Assembly (NCBI GenBank): GCA_003151335.1
Contig: PLXE01000117.1
Span: 98,064 to 162,063 of the forward strand
Origin: Acidobacteriaceae bacterium
GTDB lineage: Bacteria; Acidobacteriota; Terriglobia; Terriglobales; Acidobacteriaceae
Direction: 5' to 3'
DNA length: 64,000 nt
A program made the translations under genes and the position numbers. The notes beneath the pieces were generated by a model. The model had not been told where the DNA came from, made no database searches, and was given only the letters and a program-made list of their open reading frames with translations. Below are positions 43,537 to 64,000 of this stretch, piece by piece (the stretch's first letter is position 1; each line of letters starts with the position of its first letter).

Positions 43537-45042
43537 TCACCCCTTCACGATCGGCGGCAGCATGCCGTGGAAAAACAACCATGAGATCAGCAGCCCGACC
43601 CAAATAATGTATCCGAACAGGCACAGAACATACACGGCAGTGAGCTTCGCGATGCCTTCCTGCCACAGTTTTCGGAAGTTGGACACAACCCCGATCGAGA
43701 AAAAGGTCATGACGAAGAAAATCGACCGGAATACATTCGCCTGTGCCATGGACGCCTTCACCTTGGGCACGAGGGTTGGAACTGCAATGCCGATGGCCAG
43801 CACGAGGAAGAAGGTGGCCACATAGCCGAGGATAAACTTGGGGAAGCGCTGCCAGATTTGACCGGCGTTGACCTGCTCGTCCTGGCGGCGCTCGATTTTC
43901 GCCGACCATATCCAAGCCAGAAGAAACGCCCAGACGCCAATGAAGATGTCGATGAATACCTTCACGGTGGTGCTGACGCCCAAAATCCAACCTGGCTCAA
44001 AGTTCAAACCTGAGGTACTCAATGCCTTAGCTCGTATGAGAGCGTCGGCAATGGCGCCGCTGGCAACTGCGGCTCCGTCAGTCTTGACCGCCAGTCCCAT
44101 CCAAGCCCCGGCAACCATGGGTTGGCGATACAGGAAGTGCTGTGCCGCGAAGGGCAGGATGAGCAACTCCACAACCGAGAACACCACGACTAGGGAGGAG
44201 ACCATCACCGGCACTACCGCCCGCGCTCGGATGGCGCTCCCGGTTGCAATGGCCGCAGACACCCCGCAAATGGATATTCCCGAGGCGAGCGGCGCCGCCC
44301 ATTCACGGCTAAATCCGAAATACCGGCGAGCGACAAAGTACACCAAAGGCCAGAAAACCAGGTAAGCGCAAACGATGGCACACAGCCCCTGGAAGAGCAT
44401 CGCTGAGGCCAGGCGCCGCTGGTCGAGTGCGGTGACACCAAGAAATCCGCCGAGTATGACAATAGCTGTTTTGATGTACAGCTCAGGACGAATGGCCTCT
44501 TTTAAGAAGTTACAAACGCGCGGCAGAAAATTGCCGATGATCAAACCGGCCAGCAGGGCGATGATGAAGCCGGATTCGTTGGTTAGATTCAGCGACCAGC
44601 CGATCTTGAGCGCCTGCCTTTTGTCCGGCGTGGCGGCGATATAAGCCCAGCTGCCAAGGAACCAACAGCAATAACTGAGAATGAAAATGATGGTAAAGCC
44701 CTGGGTGAACCGCTTGAGGTCGGCGTGGAGCGCCTTGGCTCCCGCGAGAAGCACGATCAGCAGAAAAACATAAGTTGCTCCCAGTGACAGCAAGCCGGGA
44801 ACTGCCGCGTAACCTTTCGACACTGGTGCGAGCGCCTTACCAGGAGTTGTCCATACTGACGTTGCAACCGCCCAGCCTAACAGGTCGAAACCAAAGAGCA
44901 ACGCGAGCGAGCAGACGAACATGAACAGGCCAATGCACACCGCCAGCCAATCTTCGTTGAATCCCGATCGTGCAGGCGGCGCTGCAGACGGACGCGTAGA
45001 AAGTTCCCCAGCTTGGCTTCGTGGATCAGCATGAGATGTCAT
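43537..45042 (-). CDS. YeiH/UPF0324-type putative sulfate exporter
   Basis: 501 residues with about 11-12 hydrophobic segments; longer than E. coli YeiH (about 350) by an N-terminal block of two or three helices. The core contains EWAAPLASGISICGVSAAIATGSA (in part, SGISICGVSAAIATGSAI) and NVFRSIFFVMTFFSIGVVSNF (split), patterns of the UPF0324/YeiH family, which is annotated as putative sulfate exporters on genetic grounds only. A UDP-sulfoquinovose synthase gene lies upstream on the same strand, across an 817-base gap, so a link with sulfite or sulfonate handling is plausible. No ribosome site is clear before the ATG. Confidence 0.8.
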   Translation of the reverse strand: MTSHADPRSQAGELSTRPSAAPPARSGFNEDWLAVCIGLFMFVCSLALLFGFDLLGWAVATSVWTTPGKALAPVSKGYAAVPGLLSLGATYVFLLIVLLAGAKALHADLKRFTQGFTIIFILSYCCWFLGSWAYIAATPDKRQALKIGWSLNLTNESGFIIALLAGLIIGNFLPRVCNFLKEAIRPELYIKTAIVILGGFLGVTALDQRRLASAMLFQGLCAIVCAYLVFWPLVYFVARRYFGFSREWAAPLASGISICGVSAAIATGSAIRARAVVPVMVSSLVVVFSVVELLILPFAAQHFLYRQPMVAGAWMGLAVKTDGAAVASGAIADALIRAKALSTSGLNFEPGWILGVSTTVKVFIDIFIGVWAFLLAWIWSAKIERRQDEQVNAGQIWQRFPKFILGYVATFFLVLAIGIAVPTLVPKVKASMAQANVFRSIFFVMTFFSIGVVSNFRKLWQEGIAKLTAVYVLCLFGYIIWVGLLISWLFFHGMLPPIVKG

Positions 45043-45859: not shown

Positions 45860-47062
45860 CTAAGCCCCCACGGCCTGACCGCTGAGGTATTCGACTTTGT
45901 GGCGCGTTCCGTCCCACCGAATCTTGGGGATCAAAACCTCCTTTTTCGCCTCGATCCGTTCCCGGTACTTCATCAGGTCGGTAAGCATGATCTTCATCTC
46001 AGCTTCGACATCGTGAGTCGGCTTGTAACCCAAATCCCGTAGGTTCTGATGGTCGGGCTTGTAGTAATGCTCTTCCATTTCCTTACGTGGGTTCTCCAGG
46101 TTGTGAATCTCGACCTTCAACCCGAGCTGCCCCGCAACGCGCCGGACCTTTTCCGCCAGTTCGGTAAGGTCGTAAACCTCTTCGAACTGGTTGAGGACGC
46201 GGTATTCACCAGGTTGGGAAGGATTTTCCAGCGCCAGGGTCAGGCACTGCATGGAGTCACGCAAGGGCAAGAAGCCCCGCTTTTGATGTCCCCGGCCGAA
46301 GGGAGTCAGCGGATGCCCAATCACTGCCTGACAACAGAAACGGTTAATCGCAGTGCCAAACGACTCGTCAAAGTCCAGCCGGGTCAGCAGCCGCTCGTCG
46401 CTGCCCATCTCGTCAATGCGGGTGCCAAACACCACCCCCTGCATCACATCGGTGGCGCGAAGCTTCCAGACCTTGCAGGCGAACATGATGTTATTTGATC
46501 CGTGCACCTTGGAGAGGTGGTAGAAGCTGCCCGGCTGCCGCGGAAACGGCATCCGGTCGCGGCGTCCGCGGTACTCAATCTCGAAGAAGCCCTCCGGAAT
46601 GTCGACGTTTGGAGTCCCGTACTCCCCCATAGTGCCCAGCTTGAGCAGGTGGGCCTCAGGCCGCAAGTCGCGAATGGCGAACATCAGGTTGAAGGTGGAA
46701 ACTACGTTGTTGACCTGCACGAAGGTAGCGTGATGCACATCGACCATGGAGTACGGAGCGGAAGGGCATTCTCCCAGATGCACCACCGCGTCCGGTTGGA
46801 ATTCCTTAAAGATGCGTTCCACCGCCGAATAATCTCGAAGGTCGGCTTCCCAAAACTTCGGCTCCAGCCCGCGCGACTCCTTCAGCGCGGCCAGCCGCTC
46901 CTTCATGGGTACAATGGGTGTTGCGCTGCACGATCCCATCTCTTCGACCCATTGCCGCCGCAGAAACAAATCCGCCCCTGCCACTTGATGTCCCCGGGCC
47001 GCAAGATATTGCGCCAGCGACCAACCGAGGTAGCCATCCATCCCTGCGATAAAAACACGCAT
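45860..47062 (-). CDS. sqdB: UDP-sulfoquinovose synthase (SqdB/Agl3-like)
   Basis: 400 residues, near the length of SqdB (about 400). The extended-SDR start is FIAGMDGYLGWSLAQYL. SqdB-specific signatures follow: LLKLGTMGEYGTPNVDIPEG (with the active-site Thr), FYHLSKVHGSNNIMFACKVW (Tyr and Lys of the catalytic triad), and ATDVMQGVVFGTRIDEM. The enzyme builds UDP-sulfoquinovose from UDP-glucose and sulfite. In plants and cyanobacteria it serves sulfolipid; in Sulfolobus the homologue (Agl3) serves surface glycoprotein sugars. In an EPS locus, surface-glycan use is likely. A ribosome site (aaggagctggag) precedes the ATG. Confidence 0.9.
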   Translation of the reverse strand: MRVFIAGMDGYLGWSLAQYLAARGHQVAGADLFLRRQWVEEMGSCSATPIVPMKERLAALKESRGLEPKFWEADLRDYSAVERIFKEFQPDAVVHLGECPSAPYSMVDVHHATFVQVNNVVSTFNLMFAIRDLRPEAHLLKLGTMGEYGTPNVDIPEGFFEIEYRGRRDRMPFPRQPGSFYHLSKVHGSNNIMFACKVWKLRATDVMQGVVFGTRIDEMGSDERLLTRLDFDESFGTAINRFCCQAVIGHPLTPFGRGHQKRGFLPLRDSMQCLTLALENPSQPGEYRVLNQFEEVYDLTELAEKVRRVAGQLGLKVEIHNLENPRKEMEEHYYKPDHQNLRDLGYKPTHDVEAEMKIMLTDLMKYRERIEAKKEVLIPKIRWDGTRHKVEYLSGQAVGA

Positions 47063-50705: not shown

Positions 50706-51872
50706 GTGACCCGACAGACCATCCGGGTTCTCACACTGATTGAAAGTCCGACCGTAACCGGACCCGCGCGCAACATCATTGAGTTCGGCAAGCTCGGAGT
50801 AGTTGCTGAACCCGGTCCGCCGGCCGTAGAAACGATGGTGGTGACGTACTGGCGGGGCGCCGGCGAGAGTCCCGTCGCAGCGGCGGCCAGGAATGCCGGA
50901 CTGCCAGTGGCGACGATCTCGGAGCGCCACCGGTGGGACACCCAGGCAATACCGCAGTTGCGCCGAATTATCGCTGAGTACCGGCCCGACATCCTCGAAT
51001 CCCGTAACATCAAGTCGCATTTCCTGGTGCGAGCGCTCGGGTTGCATAGGCAGTATCCGTGGGTTGCTTGGAACCACGGATACACCGAGCGCGACTGGCT
51101 AGACCGCACCTACAGCCAGTTAGACCGCTGGTCTTTGCAAGCAGCCTTTCGAGTTGTAACCGTATGCAGGCCGTTTGCAGAAACATTGGAAAGGCGTGGC
51201 ATCGACCGGCGCAAGATCACCATCCTGCACAATTTCGTGAAGCCCTTCGTACCTGCGCCCACGGAGGACATTGAACGGCTACGGCGCAGCCTCGGCGTGC
51301 AGAACCAAGCTGTGATCCTGGCCGTAGGACGCCTTTCGTCTGAAAAAGGGCAGGCCATCCTGCTGCAGGCTGCCGCACGACTGGAGAAGATGAACGAAGC
51401 CCCCGATTTCCGAGTCGTGGTCGTAGGCGAAGGCCCCGAGAAGGAGAGCCTACTCCGCCTGACGGCACGCTTGGGGATCGGGCAGCGGATCGTGATGGAA
51501 GGCTTCCAACCGGACGTAAGACCCTATTACTGCTTGAGCACGCTGCTTGCGTTGCCTTCTTACTCCGAAGGCTCGCCGAACGTGGTACTGGAGGCAATGG
51601 CTGCCGGCCTTCCAATTGCGGCCACGGATGCGGGGGGCGTTCCCGAGATCCTGGAGGATGGTATAAGCGGTCTGCTGGTGCAACCAGGCGATCCTCAGGC
51701 CATGGCAGAGGCCATCCTGCGCATCCTCCAAGACAAGGACCTGGCGCTGAAGTTGGGAGCGGCGGCCCGCTCACGTGTGGAGGCGACGTACACACCTCAG
51801 GCCTACCGAAGGTCGCTGACTAAACTTTATCTCGCCACGCTGGAAGCGGCTTCGAAATCCCCAGCCGCCTAG
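50706..51872 (+). CDS. GT4-family glycosyltransferase
   Basis: 388 residues. GTG start at 50706 with aggag six bases upstream. The Gly-rich N terminus of most GT4s is replaced by LTLIESPTVTGPARNIIEFG. The donor domain has ILAVGRLSSEKGQAILLQAA, VVVGEGPEKESLLRL and PSYSEGSPNVVLEAMAAGLP (Glu-x7-Glu type site). Its stop overlaps the stop of the next, oppositely oriented GT4 gene by three bases. Confidence 0.9.
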   Translation: MTRQTIRVLTLIESPTVTGPARNIIEFGKLGVVAEPGPPAVETMVVTYWRGAGESPVAAAARNAGLPVATISERHRWDTQAIPQLRRIIAEYRPDILESRNIKSHFLVRALGLHRQYPWVAWNHGYTERDWLDRTYSQLDRWSLQAAFRVVTVCRPFAETLERRGIDRRKITILHNFVKPFVPAPTEDIERLRRSLGVQNQAVILAVGRLSSEKGQAILLQAAARLEKMNEAPDFRVVVVGEGPEKESLLRLTARLGIGQRIVMEGFQPDVRPYYCLSTLLALPSYSEGSPNVVLEAMAAGLPIAATDAGGVPEILEDGISGLLVQPGDPQAMAEAILRILQDKDLALKLGAAARSRVEATYTPQAYRRSLTKLYLATLEAASKSPAA

Positions 51873-53107
51873 GACGCAATCCTCGCACTCGGCTCTTTCT
51901 CCGCTTCGCTAATCCGGCCAAGAACGGTCAACTCGATGAGCTCTTTCACTTTTCGGCCCCATTCTGCCTCATTGTATTGAGCTCGCGCGATGCGCTGTCC
52001 ATTCTGACCCAGGCGTGCTCGCAGTTCAGGAGAATTCAGGAGTAGCCGGAGTTTTTCCGCCAGTTCGTCAACATTTCCGCTTTCAAAAATCAGCCCAGTT
52101 TCCCCTTCCCGAATGTAATAAGGGACCCCGCCAACTCGCGAGCCAATGACCGGCTTGCCCGCCGCCATGGCTTCCAGCACGACGCGCGGAGCGGCGTCGG
52201 TCCGCGAGCACAGGGCGTAAATGGAACAATCGGTTAAGATTTGCAACGCTTGAAGGTTGGGCCGGGCCTTCAGGATTTCTATTTGCCGACTGTCGCCGAT
52301 CATCTCCCGGATCAGGTGTTCATCTGGAAAATGGCCCAGCAGCCGGACCTTGGTGTCTGGAAACTCGGATTCGATCTTCCGAAATGCGCGGATCAGAATG
52401 TCCGCCCCCTTCAAAAACCAGGGCGCACCCATAAGCAGGACCGAACCATCACTTTCCCCGCCGTGTGGAATCCGCGACATTGCTGTGAAGCTGTGAATCA
52501 CGCAAGCGGGAATCTTTTGCAGGTTGGGGTACTTTTGCAGTTGGTTGGGATACATCAGGTGAAGCCGATCGCAGCGTAACACCAAAAACCGCAACAATAG
52601 GTCCGATACCACTCTGGCTATGCGCGTCTTAACGCTTACCCTCGCGGAGTAGTGATAAGCGTTTCCTCCGAAGGCGTTGAACCGGTAAGCATTCTCGGGC
52701 ACGTTGGGCAACCTGAGGATGAACTTGGTGCGCAATAAGCGAGACAGAATCCAGGCAACGACTCCCGACAGCCCAGCGCCGTAACTCATCGTGCAATCGA
52801 TCCGTTTTTCGCGGCCAAGCCGAAGACCCTGCTTCAGCTGGAATCGAAAAATGGCTGCTTTCTGCCGGAACGAGAGCAGTTTGTAACGCCCAGCGAGAAA
52901 AAGATGGTAAGCCAACTTTTGGTTGACCTTATGAGTCGGGAAGCAATTCTCACCGAGTTCAGCGCGCAGTGAACCCGCCTTCGCCATCCCCGTGGGAAGG
53001 AGCACATCCACGCTGATGTCTCCCCGCAGGTGGTACCACTCAGCCATGCTTGCATCGTTGGGCGGGGGAAGCAGGCCAGGAAAGACATACAAAAGATTGA
53101 TCGCCAT
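51869..53107 (-). CDS. GT4-family glycosyltransferase, tandem duplicate 1
   Basis: 412 residues, starting MAINLLYVFPGLLPPPNDAS. It is about 55-60% identical by eye to the next gene on this strand (53206-54438), with shared blocks YHLFLAGRY, LRLxNVPENAYRFN, LIRAFRKIE, HFPDEHLIREMIGDSR and EILKARPN. Donor motifs VLEAMAAGKPVIGSRVGGVP and FESGNVDELAEKL are intact. A ribosome site (ggggaga) precedes the ATG. The pair arose by tandem duplication and has diverged, so the two may add different sugars. Confidence 0.88.
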   Translation of the reverse strand: MAINLLYVFPGLLPPPNDASMAEWYHLRGDISVDVLLPTGMAKAGSLRAELGENCFPTHKVNQKLAYHLFLAGRYKLLSFRQKAAIFRFQLKQGLRLGREKRIDCTMSYGAGLSGVVAWILSRLLRTKFILRLPNVPENAYRFNAFGGNAYHYSARVSVKTRIARVVSDLLLRFLVLRCDRLHLMYPNQLQKYPNLQKIPACVIHSFTAMSRIPHGGESDGSVLLMGAPWFLKGADILIRAFRKIESEFPDTKVRLLGHFPDEHLIREMIGDSRQIEILKARPNLQALQILTDCSIYALCSRTDAAPRVVLEAMAAGKPVIGSRVGGVPYYIREGETGLIFESGNVDELAEKLRLLLNSPELRARLGQNGQRIARAQYNEAEWGRKVKELIELTVLGRISEAEKEPSARIAS

Positions 53108-53205
53108 ATCTCCCCGGTTAATTCAAAAAGTGCTCAGGGCCGAGAACAGCAAAGCGCACCTCCGAATCTGGCCTCCGCTGGTGGTACTGATAAGGAGTTG
53201 CCCTC

Positions 53206-54438
53206 TTACGATGGCACATTCGCGGTCGGCTCGCTCGTTATCGTCGTGGTGCGCCCATTAACTGCCAACTCGATCATCTCTTGCATCTTGCGTCCCCAAA
53301 CTTCCGCCGTGTACTGGGTCTTTGCCATCCGGCGGCCTGTCTGGCCCATACTTGCCCGTAACTCGGGCGAACTCAGCATGATCCTAAGCTTCTCACTCAA
53401 ATCATCCGAATTTTCGCTTTCAAAGAGAAACCCGTTTACTCCGTCTCGCACGTACTGGGGAACACCCCCCACCCGTGATCCGATAAGCGGTTTTCCAGCG
53501 GCCATACCCTCAACAAGAACGCGACCTGCGGACTCTGAGCGAGAAGCCAGCACCAGCACTGAACAGTCAGCGATGATTTTCACGGCTTCGGGATTTGGTC
53601 GCGCCTTCAGGATTTCGATTCGTCGGCTATCGCCTATCATTTCCCGTAGCAAGTGTTCGTCGGGAAAATACCCCAAAAGGCGGAGCTTCCAATTAGGGAA
53701 CTCCGGTTCAATTTTGCGGAAGGCCCGGATGAGAACATCCACACCCTTGAGATACCAGGGACCACCAACAAGCAGAATAGAGTGGTCACTGATTCCGGTG
53801 TAAGGTATCCGTGAGACCGCGGTGAACACCGGAAGAATGTTGAATGGGACCTTTTGCAGCTGCGGGTAAAGCTTCAATTGGTCGGGGTAGAGGAGATGGA
53901 GGCGATCCGAGGAAAGCACCAGAACCCGCAGTAGCACATCCGAGACCCACCTTGCCAGCCGCGTTTTCAGGTTCACTTTGGCCGAATAGTGCCAAGATTG
54001 ACCGAACTGATTGAAACGATATGCGTTTTCCGGAACATTGGCCAAGCGGATGATCAACTTGGCTCGCAACAGGCGGGAGAGAAAAAACGCGACTAACCCA
54101 GCCAATCCCCAGTTGTAACCCATTACACAGTCGAACCGCAGTCTGCGAGACAGCCGCAGGCCCTCACTCAGCTGGAACCACAGAATGGCGAATTTTTGTC
54201 GAAATGTGCCTAACTCGTATCTGCCAGCTAGAAACAGGTGATAGGTTAGGTTGTTTACCTTATAAGTGGGGTAGCTTCCGTCGCCCAAATCTCGGTGGAG
54301 GTTCTCCGGCGTTTTATCCTTAAGGGGGAGAAGCATGTCGACGGTAATATCGCCGGAGACGTGGGCCATCTCAGCAAAGGCCGGGTCCTTTGGTGGAGCA
54401 TCCATGCCGGGAAAGACATATAGCACTCGTATGGGCAT
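53206..54438 (-). CDS. GT4-family glycosyltransferase, tandem duplicate 2
   Basis: 410 residues, starting MPIRVLYVFPGMDAPPKDPA. Close paralogue of the gene at 51869-53107, with the same block order (YHLFLAGRY, NVPENAYRFN, LIRAFRKIE, GYFPDEHLLREMIGDSRR). It differs in the active-site area: duplicate 1 has SRTDAAPRVVLEAMAAGKP, this one SRSESAGRVLVEGMAAGKP, so the conserved donor-site Glu is followed by Gly. No clear ribosome site. The 98-base gap to duplicate 1 suggests one transcript. Confidence 0.88.
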   Translation of the reverse strand: MPIRVLYVFPGMDAPPKDPAFAEMAHVSGDITVDMLLPLKDKTPENLHRDLGDGSYPTYKVNNLTYHLFLAGRYELGTFRQKFAILWFQLSEGLRLSRRLRFDCVMGYNWGLAGLVAFFLSRLLRAKLIIRLANVPENAYRFNQFGQSWHYSAKVNLKTRLARWVSDVLLRVLVLSSDRLHLLYPDQLKLYPQLQKVPFNILPVFTAVSRIPYTGISDHSILLVGGPWYLKGVDVLIRAFRKIEPEFPNWKLRLLGYFPDEHLLREMIGDSRRIEILKARPNPEAVKIIADCSVLVLASRSESAGRVLVEGMAAGKPLIGSRVGGVPQYVRDGVNGFLFESENSDDLSEKLRIMLSSPELRASMGQTGRRMAKTQYTAEVWGRKMQEMIELAVNGRTTTITSEPTANVPS

Positions 54439-57393: not shown

Positions 57394-57981
57394 TTACTCC
57401 ACGGAGGCTACCGAGGCGGCCTTAATGGCGCGCGCAGGATTACCCACCGCAACAACTCCATCCTCGACGGGATGAACCACAACCGCACCCGCACCTATCG
57501 TGGTGCGCGCACCGACCGGAGCCATGATGATCGCAGATGCGCCAATCCAGCAGTCTGGCCCGATATCAATTGTTTGAAACTCGCTTTCTGAAGCCCCGCC
57601 AATGTTACCTGATGCATCCCTTGGGTGCTGGCGTCGTCCGCTGAGGATCTGGACGTGCGATGCGATTTGCGTGCGATCACCAATTCTGCAGCTACCCAAG
57701 ACACAATAAGAGCCGATGTAGACGGATTGCCCTACCGCAGCGCTCGGATGCGCAAAAAAAGAGCCGAATGAAATCCGGCTTTCCAGCGAGCATTGCTCCA
57801 GGGTCAATTTGTAGAACGCAAGCCGCAAGTAATCGCCGGGCAGCCCGGGAGATATAGCACACGCCTGTGCGCCGAATGAGAACATCCGGCCGAAGCGACC
57901 AAACCCCGCGATCAGGGCCCAGGGCAGCGCAAAAACCATGGCCACTCCAATGGCCAATAACTTGAGGTATCGCTTGATCAT
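57394..57981 (-). CDS. Hexapeptide-repeat acyltransferase (LbH family)
   Basis: 195 residues from the ATG at 57981. An N-terminal membrane or membrane-associated helix (LLAIGVAMVFALPWALIAGF) is followed by a left-handed beta-helix with hexapeptide repeats (for example VYIGSYCVLG, TQIASHVQIL) and a loop containing SGRRQHPRD. The C-terminal turns (IGPDCWIGASAIIMAPVGAR, IGAGAVVVHPVEDGVVAVGNP) are as in NodL/WbbJ-type acetyltransferases. The His in the RRQH loop fits the catalytic His of this group. It likely O-acetylates a sugar of the polymer or its precursor. An upstream TTG at 57999 would add six residues. Confidence 0.85.
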   Translation of the reverse strand: MIKRYLKLLAIGVAMVFALPWALIAGFGRFGRMFSFGAQACAISPGLPGDYLRLAFYKLTLEQCSLESRISFGSFFAHPSAAVGQSVYIGSYCVLGSCRIGDRTQIASHVQILSGRRQHPRDASGNIGGASESEFQTIDIGPDCWIGASAIIMAPVGARTTIGAGAVVVHPVEDGVVAVGNPARAIKAASVASVE

Positions 57982-58094
57982 GGCTGAGATGCCCTGCAAT
58001 CACCCATGAGTCCACAGAAATTTCGTCCGGCGCTAAATACGATATACGACTCTAACACGTTAGTGATCGGTCGGATCGCATCGTGCTTCATGGC

Positions 58095-60980
58095 TTACGG
58101 GGATCCGGTAAGGAATGTCCAATCACGCACCGTGCCACCCGGACGGTTCGTCTGGGCGACATTGCCGGCATCGTCAACACCCTTGGTGGCGAAATGGTAG
58201 GTAGCGTTGGGGCGCAAGCCGGTCAAGACAACTGTATTGATGTAAGAAAGCCGGCAAACGGCGGGGTTGACCGTAGTCGCGCATCCCGCGTTGCAGGCGG
58301 AAACGCTGCTGCACGACTTACTTACGCCCTTGGCAGTCGATCCGTACGAGTTCGAAAGTCCGTACAAAACCTCCGCCGAGGCCAATTGCTCGTAGGTGCT
58401 CCAAGCAATGGTAGCCGCCGTTCCCTTTACAGTCACAGGCGTCACGCCGGTTAAGGGATCGGCGGTGGTGCTGTTCCCCTCCTGCGGCCGTGGGATCGGC
58501 GGCACGGTGTCAGGGAAAGGCGCTTTGTTTCCAGACGGCTTATTCCTTTCCGGAAAAGTGCTGGGGATATAGCCCGCCTGAGTGCGCCAACCGATGTAGT
58601 CAAAGGTCCATTTGAAGATCTGGCCGAAGTCTTTTCCCGCGAACCAAAATCCTGCCGTAGGAGAAATACCCGCATCGAAGCAAGCATCTCCTTCCTTCAG
58701 GTAGGCATTGTCGTCGGAGATATTCCAATACCACGCATAGGCGCCACAAACCAGATTGTTAAGCTCGACGTAACTATCGTTATCGTTAGAACTGTCATGC
58801 GGGATATCTAGGCCGTTGTAGTAGAACGCATCATGACCAGCACTCTTCGCTGCCCACAATTTCGACCACATGAAGTCGAGCGTTGCCTTTACGACAATCG
58901 GAATTCTCTGATCTTGCTGCTGTCCCATCGCGCCCTGCCATTCATAATATTCGATCAAGGCTTCCATATCGACTCCGAGGATGAAACTGCGCCAGATCGG
59001 ACCGATTGGATAAGTTTGCGGATGGGTCGCCGTGCCATATTCCCGCCCCGAAGGATCGTAGTTGATATTCTGGTCCAGGTTTCCCAACAGGGAGTCGACA
59101 TAGCGTCTGGTCTGAAGAGAGTCTTGTGGGGTCTGGTTGCTTGTTACTTGCCACTTTGCGACAGCAGCCTCCAGCATGTACGCCGTCATCCGAGCGCCGG
59201 TAGATGCATCTATGGGATACAACTGATAGAGCGTATTTCCCGCTTTGCCACCTCCAGGGGGTTCATAGCTTCCAAAGTTGATAGCCGCTTGCCGGGCGGC
59301 TTCATCTCCGGTGCGGAAGTAATACATTGCGGCACCGTTTGGGAAGAGGTTCCACTCCCGCAGCAGTCCGCCAGGCCAAACCGTGCCCGCAGCTCCGACG
59401 CCGGCGAAAAAGTTCCAGTAGGACTGCTGACACAGAATCGCGCAGTGTTGGTAGTAAGCTTGCGCATTGGGGTATCGCTGACCCTTCGGTTCAGTACTCG
59501 CACCTGAGGGTGTTGACCAACCTTTAAGACCAGCGTAGTCGGACAATGTCAGAAAGTTCCTGCCGTTGTCATAATTGTAGCAATTCGAATTGGCACTCGC
59601 CGCACCATAAACGCCATTCTCGAAATAGCCTGTGCTGTTGAAGTAATCTCCACCGGGTCTGGGAGGGGAAGTCTGTGGCCCACCTGTGCAAGCGACCGGC
59701 CCCCAAGATTGAATTCGCTTCTCCCAGGTGTAATCTTTTCCGGAAGGGCAGGTCTTGCTGGTCGCTAGATAGCATGGAATGGCTGGACAGGTTCCCGAGG
59801 CCAGGCAGGATGGATGGCTCACCGTAAAGGTTGCAGTCGGTCGTACCGTGAAAATATAGGTGACGGTGAAAGGCTGACCGATGTTCTCCCCAACGTTCTG
59901 GCCCTGCAGAGGCTGGAAAGTTGCCGACACCTGATATTGGCCAGCAGGAGTGCTACCGCGGCCGCAATTATCGGTCCCGTGGCCGTTGCAGTTCGTCCTG
60001 ATACGAACCGCGTACTGATCCATGGCTGTCTGAAAATTTCCGCCATAACACCAGTCACGTCTATGCCAGCCGTCGACCTTATAGTTGGCGTATTCGGTCG
60101 CCGGATTGTTGATGTATTGGTCGGTGCAGAGGAATGTCGCGTCCATATCGAACAGCGTCCCGTCTTGGACGTCCGTGCAGTTAGATTTGCATGGATTACC
60201 CCCCGCGTCCTTCAACTTGACGAACCGGACGCTCGACCAGGGCATGTACATAGACTTGGACAAGGGGCCGCTGGTAAGTACCGCTTGCAGACCAACCAGC
60301 AAATCGTGTCCCTGGTAGACGTTTTGCGGTCCATAGGTCCAAATAGCCCAATTCGAACCGCCTGACAGATTGGGCGAGGGAGAGTTGAATATAAAGGCCT
60401 TGCAGTTTCCTTTGCAGGTCCCGTTGGCGAGGGACGGGCCCCCGGTCGTGGACCACTTGCCAGAGTTTTTGTCCTGTGAAGCCACATAGAAGAAATGGGC
60501 GCCCTTGCTGGCAAATTCGCTTCCCGCGGCTGGTGTCCCCTGATAGCTTGGAGAAAGATGGTCAATGTGGACCGAGTGGTTCTTGGCAAAACCCGCACCG
60601 CAGCCGTCATTTCCTGCGACGTCGCCGTAGACGTGACGCTCGGGAGCCAGGTTTCTATCCCGCATCAAGACAACCACGGAAGAACTGCAATGCTCGGTCG
60701 TCCACTTTACATCAACGTACGCGCCTGAAGTTCCTGAGGCCAGGCCACCAGCCGCTACCGCCGGAGTGCTGCCCATCGCGGAACCGGGGGTCTGCCAGGC
60801 GCCGCTCGCGGCATTGCCACACTGAACATCTTTCGGCTGATCGGGACCGATCGAGCCGAAGGCCGCGGAGCCCACTAGCAGAAACAGGAGTGACACCCAA
60901 GGTGGCAGTAGCGCCTGAAATGGCCGCCTTTTCGGGGGACCAGTTAGTATCTGGCGACGATTGTCCATGAAAGCCATCAT
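58095..60980 (-). CDS. Large secreted Cys-rich protein with toroid-like core and FnIII-like end
   Basis: 961 residues from the ATG at 60980 (further ATGs at 60977 and 60968 are alternatives). A signal peptide (ALLPPWVSLLFLLVGSAAFG) ends near residue 45. Next is an FnIII-like module (about 75-170), a Cys-rich region with CKGNC, CKSNC and CNGHGTDNC, and a helical core (about 500-800) with GGLLREWNLFPNGAAMYYF, TGARMTAYMLEAAVAKWQV and RSFILGVDMEALIEYYEWQ (helix pairs of an alpha/alpha toroid). The last 120 residues form a second FnIII-like domain (TIAWSTYEQLASAEVLYGLS, TYHFATKGVDDAGN). Toroid plus FnIII is common in polysaccharide lyases and glycosidases, but no catalytic residues are identified. 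Confidence 0.75.
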   Translation of the reverse strand: MMAFMDNRRQILTGPPKRRPFQALLPPWVSLLFLLVGSAAFGSIGPDQPKDVQCGNAASGAWQTPGSAMGSTPAVAAGGLASGTSGAYVDVKWTTEHCSSSVVVLMRDRNLAPERHVYGDVAGNDGCGAGFAKNHSVHIDHLSPSYQGTPAAGSEFASKGAHFFYVASQDKNSGKWSTTGGPSLANGTCKGNCKAFIFNSPSPNLSGGSNWAIWTYGPQNVYQGHDLLVGLQAVLTSGPLSKSMYMPWSSVRFVKLKDAGGNPCKSNCTDVQDGTLFDMDATFLCTDQYINNPATEYANYKVDGWHRRDWCYGGNFQTAMDQYAVRIRTNCNGHGTDNCGRGSTPAGQYQVSATFQPLQGQNVGENIGQPFTVTYIFTVRPTATFTVSHPSCLASGTCPAIPCYLATSKTCPSGKDYTWEKRIQSWGPVACTGGPQTSPPRPGGDYFNSTGYFENGVYGAASANSNCYNYDNGRNFLTLSDYAGLKGWSTPSGASTEPKGQRYPNAQAYYQHCAILCQQSYWNFFAGVGAAGTVWPGGLLREWNLFPNGAAMYYFRTGDEAARQAAINFGSYEPPGGGKAGNTLYQLYPIDASTGARMTAYMLEAAVAKWQVTSNQTPQDSLQTRRYVDSLLGNLDQNINYDPSGREYGTATHPQTYPIGPIWRSFILGVDMEALIEYYEWQGAMGQQQDQRIPIVVKATLDFMWSKLWAAKSAGHDAFYYNGLDIPHDSSNDNDSYVELNNLVCGAYAWYWNISDDNAYLKEGDACFDAGISPTAGFWFAGKDFGQIFKWTFDYIGWRTQAGYIPSTFPERNKPSGNKAPFPDTVPPIPRPQEGNSTTADPLTGVTPVTVKGTAATIAWSTYEQLASAEVLYGLSNSYGSTAKGVSKSCSSVSACNAGCATTVNPAVCRLSYINTVVLTGLRPNATYHFATKGVDDAGNVAQTNRPGGTVRDWTFLTGSP

Positions 60981-60986
60981 ACCCAC

Positions 60987-61504
60987 TTCGTCACCGGAAC
61001 TCGAGCCGGAGTTTCCGTTCTAGCTCCCAACAGCCCCACACGATATGCACCACGAGGGCGTCGAGCGCACCATTCTTTCTTTGGCTGGGCCCAGGCCCGA
61101 CGCGGATCCTGTGGTTGAACTCCCTCGGTTGAGGAAATCCGCGATTGGCCACCTGCCGCTGAATGAATTTCCCAACTCAAACAGCCGCCTGTCCTTGAAG
61201 GTTATCCGCAGATGCTGAAGCGGCGGCGAAAACGCGCTTCTGTCAACAAATGGTTGATCGCATAGCCTGTTGGAAATCAGTATGACGCCCACCTTAGTAA
61301 CGGCTAGCCTAGTTACTTTAGTGCTCACTAGGGGTACATTATCCTTTCCGTGGCCACGCCAAGCAATGTATTTTTTCTTGTGCCATGGAACGCAGCGCCC
61401 TCGTACGTCCGAGGGGATCATGCTCCGTCGAGCGTCGAGAGCGAGTCCTGGCTTACCAGGGTGGGATCAGGGAAGCCACGCGAAGGCTCCCCCCAGGAGA
61501 TTGA
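60987..61504. other. Divergent gap between the two large secreted-protein genes
   Basis: About 520 bases with no gene I can support. It contains an imperfect palindrome at 61296-61317 (agtaac-ggctagcc-ta-gttact) and lower GC than the left half of the window. The gap must carry promoters for both large genes, but no -35/-10 pair is convincing. Confidence 0.4.
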
Positions 61505-61747
61505 ATGAATCGAAGATTGTCCCGTGCTGTTGCTTTTTTCCACGGTCGTCCCTCGATTTTCACGGCAATTACGTTCTATGGGTTATTGACCTTCTCGCTA
61601 CCGTCATCCACGGCACCCGATATCCGAACCAGATCACAACATCCACATCGGAACAGCAACCCAGACACATGGGTGTTATTTGGAAGAACCCCGGGTACAG
61701 CGACGGCTCAGACGGGATCGTCACAGCACAAAGGTAATCCCGGTTAA
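61505..61747 (+). CDS. Possible small secreted protein before the large partial gene
   Basis: 80 residues. The ATG has aggag six bases upstream. Residues about 1-37 could be a signal peptide (Arg-rich start, then IFTAITFYGLLTFSL). The rest is polar, rich in Pro, Thr and His, without recognisable domains. The gene would end 22 bases before the large partial gene. It is included at low confidence because the ribosome site and signal-like start are better than chance frames in this gap; a non-coding leader is equally possible. Confidence 0.3.
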   Translation: MNRRLSRAVAFFHGRPSIFTAITFYGLLTFSLPSSTAPDIRTRSQHPHRNSNPDTWVLFGRTPGTATAQTGSSQHKGNPG

Positions 61748-61769
61748 ATCGAAGGAAGGGTATTGTCCA

Positions 61770-64000
61770 ATGCATCGACTAGCATTCTTCATAGCATGTG
61801 CGGTAATCAGTTCAGTTGCATTTGCACAGCAGAACCCCGACCTCAAGGTCGGGGCAAACATGTACAACCTTGGTTTCGGCAGCGCTTCGCAAACCTGTTT
61901 TGACGGCTCTCACGACACGAAAAATGGCTGCGTCAGCAAGTGGATCGCCAGCAATATCTATCTTTCAAATTCTGCCAACTCACCCGTTTGCGTAGCCACC
62001 TCTTCAACTGTCTGCATCGGAGGAGAAGCCCCCGTCTCCGTGCCCTCCTTACAGGACATGTATTGGATTCGGGACGCGGTGGGTGTAACTCAGTACGAAA
62101 AGGCGATTCTCCACTTCACGCGGGACACCGGATTTATGAACGCTACTGGATTGCTCGGCATGGATCAGTTTGACTGGTTTGAGCAGACCTACGGGTTGAC
62201 CCAGGGGCTGTCCTACTACGTTCCGAGAGAGGCCGCCAATGGCGTTCTCCTCTATCACGGCTCGACGCTGGTCTCGGACCTGACGCAATGGGCCTATGGC
62301 GGAGCGGTTAGGACCGTGACTTACGGCGGGGGAGTGTTCACCGTCACCGGAATAGGCGCGGAAAACTTCAACAACATCACAGCGGGCAAGACGATTACTC
62401 TGACCGGATTCACTTCAGCCACGTTCTTAAACGGGAAGAGGGCAACCGTGACGGCGAACGGCGGCACTACAAGCGCGCCCACCATTACCTTCTCGCTGAC
62501 ATGCTCCTCGAATTGCACTGGGACAAACGAAACGGGATATTTGGCGAACGCTCAAACTATTCCTTCTGGCGATACCCTGTACATCGGCTTTATGGAGCCG
62601 TTTGACCAGATCAACGTGCGCCTGGCTACGCCGCGAGCTGCGGGATCGGTTACCTACCAGTACAGCAAGGGATCTGGCGCGTGGGGCGATTTAACCACTG
62701 CGTCGAACTGGGATGACCGAACGGCTGGCCTGACTTCCGGGCTAGCATCTACGCCGATCAGCTTTTACCCACCGACTGATTGGGCGCAAGACGTGGTGAA
62801 CGGTTCACGCTCTAAGTTCTGGGTGCGAATCGCCGTCTCCGGTGCAACTACTGCTCCAGTCATCTTCAACCTGCGCGGCGATAACCTGCACTCAATGCTA
62901 AACAGCACCGGACAATGTGGGGGGGTCACGAATTGCCTATTGCGCGGCTGGAGTGCGTCGGCCTATGCGTCCTCCACGGCGTGCGCTGGCTCTCCTTGCG
63001 TGGTCGCTGGTGGTTATGAATACAACCCCAACCCGCCAACAACGTCATCGGCGCGGTTTGTTTACCAAGGGCGGACTGGTGGTTACGGTGGGTACAACAA
63101 CGAGGTGTGGCTGAACCCCTCGACCGTGGATACCGGCACCGGCGAACCGCTTGCTGGCGAGGTAATCCCTTATCTATGGGCGTCGGCATTAAATGCCTTT
63201 GGCGTCAATATCAGTACAATCAATGGATCCATCCTAGACAACGGCGCCTCGCACAGCTATATGTATCCGGCATGGAACCCCAACAACACTGACCTTCTGT
63301 GTGCTCCGAGTTGTCACGAAGCCAGTGGAAACTCAGACTTTGACAATTATTGGGCCACTGCCTTTGCGGTCAGCACCGCCATCTTCCACGCCAATTATGG
63401 CAGTGCGTTCCTGGCAACAGCCAATGTCACCGCTAACTGGCCGACGACTTTGGGGACCATCGGGCCATCCCTTGGCCTCACATGGCTGGAGAATCCCCTG
63501 CTAGTGACCGCGGGCGGCAATTTTAACGGGTCGACCGTTACCGCCCAAAATACGTTCGACTTGGGGCTGCATGGCATTCCGGTTTCTGTCGCGGAGGTTG
63601 ATTCCAACAAGGCCGGTTTCTGCGACACGATGTACTCGCCGTGCATTCCGTTTGTGTGGAACCGCGGGGCGCGCGGCTCCATGATTGCTCTGGGAAATCA
63701 CTATCTGTTCGGCAATCCGCACACCGTCCTGACCTACTCGGTCACGGGCATGAGCATCTATAACTTTGCCGATCAGTATTACTACTTTGTGGATGCGACG
63801 ACGCTAACTGCGCCCATCTCGCGGGGCGTTTTTCCCGCACCCTACGCGCTCCACGTCGCCAGCACGGCTCCCCTGGTGGCGATGCCAAGTGCAAGTTGTT
63901 TACTGCCTGGTTGCGGGGGCACCGATAACCCCTTTGCGGGAAGCATCTTTGTTCGCATCTGCCCGACGACAAGCACCTGTCAAGAAGGCGATGTTTTTCA
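61770..64000 (+). CDS. Large secreted Cys-containing protein (cut by right edge)
   Basis: An uninterrupted frame of 743 codons from the ATG at 61770 to the window end, so the C terminus is missing. A signal peptide (LAFFIACAVISSVAFAQ) comes first. The protein is rich in Gly, Thr, Asn, Ser and aromatic residues with spaced Cys pairs. A likely beta-sandwich module lies at about 265-370 (SGDTLYIGFMEPFDQINVRL to FWVRIAVSG), like domains of adhesins and tail fibres. The ribosome site gaaggaaggg lies upstream. It is divergent from the other large secreted protein, which shares the Cys-pair style (CSSNC). No enzymatic motif seen. Adhesin, S-layer-like or matrix protein are possibilities. Confidence 0.8.
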   Translation, partial: MHRLAFFIACAVISSVAFAQQNPDLKVGANMYNLGFGSASQTCFDGSHDTKNGCVSKWIASNIYLSNSANSPVCVATSSTVCIGGEAPVSVPSLQDMYWIRDAVGVTQYEKAILHFTRDTGFMNATGLLGMDQFDWFEQTYGLTQGLSYYVPREAANGVLLYHGSTLVSDLTQWAYGGAVRTVTYGGGVFTVTGIGAENFNNITAGKTITLTGFTSATFLNGKRATVTANGGTTSAPTITFSLTCSSNCTGTNETGYLANAQTIPSGDTLYIGFMEPFDQINVRLATPRAAGSVTYQYSKGSGAWGDLTTASNWDDRTAGLTSGLASTPISFYPPTDWAQDVVNGSRSKFWVRIAVSGATTAPVIFNLRGDNLHSMLNSTGQCGGVTNCLLRGWSASAYASSTACAGSPCVVAGGYEYNPNPPTTSSARFVYQGRTGGYGGYNNEVWLNPSTVDTGTGEPLAGEVIPYLWASALNAFGVNISTINGSILDNGASHSYMYPAWNPNNTDLLCAPSCHEASGNSDFDNYWATAFAVSTAIFHANYGSAFLATANVTANWPTTLGTIGPSLGLTWLENPLLVTAGGNFNGSTVTAQNTFDLGLHGIPVSVAEVDSNKAGFCDTMYSPCIPFVWNRGARGSMIALGNHYLFGNPHTVLTYSVTGMSIYNFADQYYYFVDATTLTAPISRGVFPAPYALHVASTAPLVAMPSASCLLPGCGGTDNPFAGSIFVRICPTTSTCQEGDVF

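Follow-up and report, generated by a model that had tools for sequence, protein, structure and literature searches.

Acidobacteriota abound in acid soils and in peat; to our knowledge little is known of the polymers made by acidobacterial EPS loci or of the enzymes that process them. In a 64,000-nucleotide stretch of DNA from an Acidobacteriaceae bacterium (hereafter the window; the genome containing it amounts to 4.65 Mb), two large genes lie head-to-head next to the genes of one such locus, and the question raised is what the two presumably secreted proteins, here called P1 and P2, do for the polymer made by their neighbours. The explanation we tentatively prefer, and would put a little short of an even chance, is that P1 is a secreted enzyme, a lyase or a hydrolase, that would cut the EPS made by the adjacent genes in the manner of AlgL.

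The divergent genes and the locus around them

The genes that define the region, with their putative export signals, are the following.

58095..60986, minus strand: P1, putatively secreted, 963 aa from a GTG or 961 aa from the ATG at 60980 two codons on (stop included)
60855..60986, minus strand: signal-peptide-like N-terminus of P1, about residues 1-44, ...SLLFLLVGSAAFG (from hydropathy; extent judged by eye)
61770..64000 and past the window end, plus strand: P2, putatively secreted, with 743 of its 966 aa inside the window
61770..61829, plus strand: signal-peptide-like N-terminus of P2, MHRLAFFIACAVISSVAFAQ (from hydropathy; extent judged by eye)
57394..57999, minus strand, as P1: hexapeptide-repeat acyltransferase downstream of P1, the same neighbour being present in two relatives

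The open frames bear out the initial annotation, made from the letters of the window, which described a P1 of 961 residues and a P2 of at least 743, each with a signal peptide. Both frames have a hydrophobic start, that of P2 continues to the window end, and the Cys pairs described at the same time are all present, CKGNC (residues 191-195) and CKSNC (266-270) in P1 and CSSNC (245-249) in P2. As judged by hydropathy only, the best hydrophobic 12-mer has a KD value of 2.3 near the start of P1 and of 2.4 in P2, which begins MHRLAFF and whose full gene of 966 aa lies at L002:2833-5730, in the stretch of its own genome past the window. P1 holds 25 cysteines and P2 27; ten pairs of neighbouring cysteines in P2 are at most seven residues apart, a spacing that would fit local disulfide loops. 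A PEP-CTERM anchor was found in neither protein, P1 ending in ...WTFLTGSP with no such Pfam or NCBIfam match, and P2 in ...LMKAPVTH with no Pfam match for the full protein and no NCBIfam match for the part in the window.

The two genes are 783 bp apart. In codon comparisons P1 showed dN values of 0.12-0.13 and dS values of 0.83-0.85 against its two orthologs, and P2 showed pN values of 0.26-0.27 against its own, with a pS of 0.73 that is near saturation. Both genes are under purifying selection, and P2 evolves faster than P1.

Pfam scans of the ten genes at 29359-57999 identified Poly_export, sugar transferase, flippase-type and O-antigen ligase-type proteins, two glycosyltransferases, an AAA protein and a hexapeptide-repeat protein, and left two genes without a match. 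The XrtA/PEP-CTERM EPS models of NCBIfam give matches below their cut-offs to the genes for the ATPase, the chain-length protein, the sugar transferase and two glycosyltransferases; a match above the cut-off was obtained in the locus with TIGR03025, the model for EPS sugar transferases in general. From P1 to the acyltransferase the gap is 95 bp to the TTG of the latter (113 bp to its first ATG), with 94 and 114 bp in the relatives, and since the two genes share a strand and the short gap is kept, these data suggest that they are on one transcript.

The initial annotation put the pair at the EPS locus edge. For the genome itself this only reflects where the window ends, as more sugar-nucleotide and glycan genes lie past P2, among them a PF01408 oxidoreductase, a PF00483 nucleotidyl transferase and, as judged by eye, epimerase/dehydratase genes and a glycosyltransferase, and the pair is located inside a glycan gene region. 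In two relatives the placement holds: no gene past P2 matched the locus, and the pair ends the shared block. Both relatives (G008 and G002) keep the order P1, hexapeptide acyltransferase, glycosyltransferase and ligase genes, further glycosyltransferases, flippase and epimerase, G002 with additional genes inserted after the acyltransferase, and both have a second P1-family gene at or past the far end of the EPS block. The glycan region downstream of P2 also contains a transposase-like gene (L002:15867-17120) and a large serine-recombinase-like gene (L002:18499-19971), both recognized by eye, a possible sign of gene traffic.

Two further genes of the region touch on the composition of the polymer.

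45863-47062, minus strand: UDP-sulfoquinovose-synthase-like gene in the EPS block
43540-45042, minus strand: Cons_hypoth698 gene nearby

The first scores 552 bits (cut-off 575) and is 97% kept in the two relatives, and the second is weakly related to the YeiH putative sulfate exporters. Another synthase-like copy is found elsewhere in the genome on a different contig (477 bits), and at least one strong sulfoquinovose-synthase match was obtained in each of the nine genus genomes; the EPS might bear a sulfosugar. At 51869-54438 two neighbouring genes for glycosyltransferases of 412 and 410 aa appear similar by eye and have one counterpart per related locus, perhaps reflecting a tandem duplication.

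Predicted fold and conservation of P1

Structure prediction had been proposed for both proteins. It gave a toroid model for P1, and for P2, of which the window contains 743 aa, an unusable model with a pLDDT of 26.7, from a four-row alignment that had the complete L043 ortholog as its first row. The P1 model, built on an 18-row alignment, divides the protein as follows.

60441..60764, minus strand: N-terminal FnIII-like domain, residues 75-182 (model; limits from our reading of the strands)
59832..60395, minus strand: second beta-sandwich, residues 198-385 (model; limits from our reading of the strands)
58575..59726, minus strand: (alpha/alpha) toroid, residues 421-804, the presumed catalytic domain (model, structural comparison and alignment)
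58107..58445, minus strand: C-terminal FnIII-like domain, residues 848-960 (model and Pfam)

With a mean pLDDT of 60.6, a pTM of 0.65 and 325 of 963 residues below 50, the order FnIII, beta-sandwich, (alpha/alpha)-toroid, FnIII is predicted at moderate confidence, which counts against the enzyme reading. The model agrees with the helical toroid-like core and FnIII-like ends noted in the initial annotation, and Pfam places PF16656 (Pur_ac_phosph_N) at residues 851-934 (E 2.4e-10), so that the accompanying statement that P1 matches no nameable family fails for the C-terminus. The toroid is without a Pfam match, and no NCBIfam model matches any part of P1. PF16656 was matched in 18 of 18 P1-family members at E up to 1, and this FnIII-like module is all that P1 shares with the purple acid phosphatases; no phosphatase domain was found beside it, which leaves P1 outside that group.

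When the model was aligned with 996 chains, the closest solved fold was the PL27 lyase 5no8 (Z 17.9, rmsd 4.0, 297 residues aligned at 9% identity), followed by complement C5 toroids with Z up to 15.9 and GH76 at 14.9. The predicted likeness to PL27 exceeds the best Z of 14 that the structure-comparison tool notes as typical for five mostly helical models, but it proves no function. Complement and alpha-2-macroglobulin toroids, which are non-enzymes, have the same fold, and the Z values they reach count against the enzyme reading. With Foldseek the first eight matches of the P1 model were complement/A2M-type chains with low TM scores, and PL27 was not among the best 50 matches listed.

A passage of PMC8377490 describes the PL27 enzyme BACCELL_00875 (PDB 5no8) as having an (alpha/alpha)6 barrel that is preceded by an N-terminal beta-sandwich. 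In its predicted fold P1 likewise has a beta-sandwich and then an (alpha/alpha) barrel, a likeness at the level of the fold, whereas P1 has extra FnIII domains and sits in an EPS-making locus, and PL27 itself is characterised by rhamnose-glucuronate lyase activity and the catalytic residues that go with it. Searches of PDB chains with the P1-family profiles A2 and A6 (E up to 10) matched no solved toroid enzyme, neither 5no8 nor an alginate lyase, and because this sequence test failed, P1 is not filed as PL27. Nor is it filed as an AlgL-type lyase or as GH127, whose catalytic domain (PF07944) is weakly matched in 3 of the 18 family members (best E 0.0024) and not in P1 itself at E up to 10.

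Across the 18 aligned sequences, some of which are near copies, 36 positions of the toroid region (residues 398-830) are invariant, among them Y472, D473, R476, R599, Y603, N743, Q789 and D796. The even toroid helices, presumed to be the inner ones, have a mean conservation of 0.63 against 0.52 for the odd helices (p 8e-4) and carry 22 of the 32 helix-borne invariants, with 10 on the odd; polar residues (R, D, N, Q and Y) are among the invariants on the presumed inner helices. Such conservation is expected for an active site, but equally for a packed core, and it does not peak uniformly where the presumed inner helices start, which counts against the enzyme reading.

These observations have to be weighed against the alternative, which we regard as unlikely, that P1 has no catalytic role and serves in the matrix or in adhesion, its toroid and FnIII domains binding and cross-linking EPS and cell surface. 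A binding protein would be in keeping with the non-enzymatic toroids that match nearly as well, with the three beta domains that flank the toroid, and with the long stem of 1.46 changes per column on which P1 and its two orthologs sit in the family tree, a branch length because of which the function of P1 may have drifted. The invariant positions themselves, some of the aligned sequences being near copies, include polar residues on helices presumed to be inner and resemble an active site more than a scaffold, and we retain the enzyme as the preferred reading.

Distribution of the P1 family and its linkage to EPS genes

P1-family genes are present in six of the nine genus genomes. A close ortholog (78-80% identity) is shared by the genome of the window and two others, the remaining matches in the genus showing 30-38% identity except for one 36-residue piece at 53%. 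A scan of a genome-contig collection returned 17 loci from nine named isolates, all Acidobacteriota by title, and several P1-family loci come from palsa and bog isolates; relatives were neither confirmed in viral contigs nor found in plasmids. In the family-wide search a profile of the whole of P1 matched 27 of 398 genomes, six of them genus genomes matched over the toroid and the other 21 matched solely at the FnIII-like ends, and for this reason a toroid-only profile was built. At E up to 1e-5 it matched 14 of 399 class genomes including its own, 11 of them from one other family, and in the phylum draw its own genome only (1 of 396). The P1 toroid family has no name; all members seen here come from Acidobacteriota, and the family is not named in the titles or abstract openings of the literature searched, a scope outside which most subscription papers lie.

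For the quantification of EPS linkage 14 proteins of the locus (13 in the window and one beyond) served as markers, and blastp matches to them were counted per stretch. Control stretches were the starts of arbitrarily numbered contigs from the same genomes, with a median of 15.9 kb compared to 18.0 kb for the toroid stretches, and 5 of the 60 were wholly masked. Outside the family of the window, one stretch was taken per contig, from 12 contigs first and then from the remaining five; loci sharing a genome are not independent, and at one of the 17 loci (L105) the toroid match contains a stop and no toroid frame was picked. At least two markers were found at 6 of the first 12 loci and at 8 of all 17, against 0 of 40 controls (Fisher p 1.5e-5), and comparison with the controls of 12 kb or more (0 of 24) gave p 2.5e-4. 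The corresponding marker densities were 9.3 and 0.56 per 100 kb. Co-occurrence with EPS genes elsewhere, a point raised in the initial annotation, is thus present for the P1 family at part of the loci.

Within the genus, the loci of P1 orthologs and second paralogs all had at least two markers (4 of 4), but these four lie on two contigs with the very block that supplied the markers, while none of the loci of further P1 paralogs (0 of 8, some on contigs of just 3-9 kb) and none of the genus controls (0 of 20) reached two. The null result for the further paralogs, the 9 of 17 other-family loci that fail the two-marker test, and the frames next to two of the further-paralog loci that by eye resemble TonB-dependent receptors are all counted against an enzyme acting on the producer's own EPS. 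EPS linkage is real for part of the P1 family, not for all of it. On the family tree, which excludes L105, L156, L157 and copies of loci already included, the EPS-linked members occupy several separate positions, with 7 label changes of which at least 5 are forced, the shuffled mean being 10.9. The earlier proposal of a polysaccharide-modifying enzyme accordingly has on its side the toroid fold with a lyase as its best match and the enrichment at other-family loci, and against it the further genus paralogs.

The same paralogs bear on another reading, to which we assign a rather low probability, that P1 is an enzyme scavenging foreign (plant or fungal) glycans and came to lie beside EPS genes by chance or gene traffic. 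It would account for paralogs next to TonB-receptor-like frames or EPS-unrelated genes, for their failure in the marker test and for the weak GH127 similarity in a few members. It does not sit well with the marker enrichment in other families of the class, nor with a position conserved in three genomes, in all of which the acyltransferase is the neighbour.

Some loci deserve mention in their own right. Two different toroid genes are present at each of three EPS-linked loci of another family (L106, L109 and L111), as on both related genus contigs. The G007 locus L046, with zero markers, has three P1-family frames, two of them overlapping, and lies near glycan-type genes for a UDP-GlcNAc 2-epimerase, an MBOAT protein and a weakly GDSL-like protein. 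In one relative a 620-aa secreted-looking protein without a Pfam match is encoded beside P2 (L043:2586-4445, minus strand), and a 27% homolog of it is found near the P1 paralogs of another genome (L046:19377-21365, plus strand).

P2, and a putative role for the pair

Two stretches of P2 stand out in the comparisons.

62301..62564, plus strand: beta-type segment, residues 178-265 (profile match)
63237..63491, plus strand: stretch from D490 (ILDN) to E574 (WLEN), the acidic residues being kept in 3 of 3 orthologs

Orthologs of P2 occur in three of the nine genus genomes, one of them holding a two-base N run and hence read as two frames. Among 349 class genomes, a draw without the two ortholog-bearing genus genomes, P2 found its own gene and two short weak matches, and no relatives were confirmed in the genome-contig collection or found in plasmids. 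Of the loci examined, residues 178-265 are the sole segment matching beyond the genus orthologs, with a weak resemblance to part of one larger protein from another genome of the family (E 3.9e-4). The full protein and its pieces gave no Pfam match above chance (one ortholog has a chance-level AIDA match, E 0.16), the window part has no NCBIfam match and P2 no PDB sequence match, in line with the earlier failure to name a family for it. Some proteins of 800-1100 aa encoded close to P1 paralogs were considered as relatives and rejected, the P2 profile matching them no better than E 0.3; those by L047, L055 and L051 are TonB-dependent-receptor-like by eye, and a 957-aa protein at L046 was ruled out by profile comparison. 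GHL15 (PF14885), the one hydrolase family tried, was rejected as the identity of P2 with no match in its own genome, and a 607-aa gene between P2 and P1 of one relative has no match in the window at E 1e-3.

P2 is a genus-restricted orphan for which a matrix protein and a hydrolase are both possible. We nevertheless find it improbable that the true partner enzyme of the locus is P2, as a glycoside hydrolase of TIM-barrel-like fold that also has beta domains. This would have to rely on the signal-peptide-like start and on the strand-like ILDN and WLEN, which by their pattern may be motifs of such a hydrolase and whose D490 and E574 are kept in all three orthologs, against the failed family and PDB searches and the low pLDDT of the model.

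The P1 ortholog, P2 and the flippase-type gene (at least 92% identity) are found in the same three of nine genus genomes, in all of which P1 and P2 are head-to-head and the acyltransferase gene follows P1, and three other genus genomes have the flippase at 56-60% and no P1 ortholog. That P1 and P2 belong together with the EPS, as initially proposed, is supported within one genus only.

If P1 is a polymer-cutting enzyme, as we tentatively prefer, it would be exported via Sec and act in the periplasm or on the cell surface, its putative substrate being the polysaccharide of the surrounding XrtA/PEP-CTERM-type EPS locus. The toroid would hold the chain at a site made by the alternate, presumed inner helices and cut it there; a Tyr/Arg/Asn set would serve for beta-elimination, or Asp residues for hydrolysis. 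The FnIII and beta-sandwich domains on either side may tether the enzyme to the glycan or to the surface. By analogy with AlgL and alginate, the task could be trimming, length control or the removal of stray polymer. The acyltransferase, whose gene directly follows P1, may modify the same polymer, and P2 would be the second secreted protein of the locus, either glycan-active or part of the matrix. Polysaccharide lyases need uronic acid in their substrate, and the absence of a uronic-acid-making enzyme among the family-scan matches on the locus, from scans not aimed at one, is counted against a lyase.

AlgL belongs to PL5. A passage of PMC8829089 describes it as clearing periplasmic alginate during the synthesis of the polymer, and a section heading there names it an (alpha/alpha)5 toroid. 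P1 resembles AlgL as a predicted toroid encoded among polymer-biosynthesis genes and is unlike it in its additional beta domains. Toroid enzymes encoded together with EPS genes are known as a kind, and the P1 toroid family itself is without a name. It is conceivable, although we hold it as short of probable, that the P1 toroid founds a new secreted polysaccharide-cleaving family in Terriglobia EPS clusters, sometimes with two members per locus, which would act on the producer's own polymer, P2 being an unrelated, genus-specific second secreted glycan protein. The invariant positions and the marker-linked loci make the claim for P1 testable with one purified protein, and if it is true, an enzyme of these loci that cuts the polymer would provide a handle on EPS structure and turnover.
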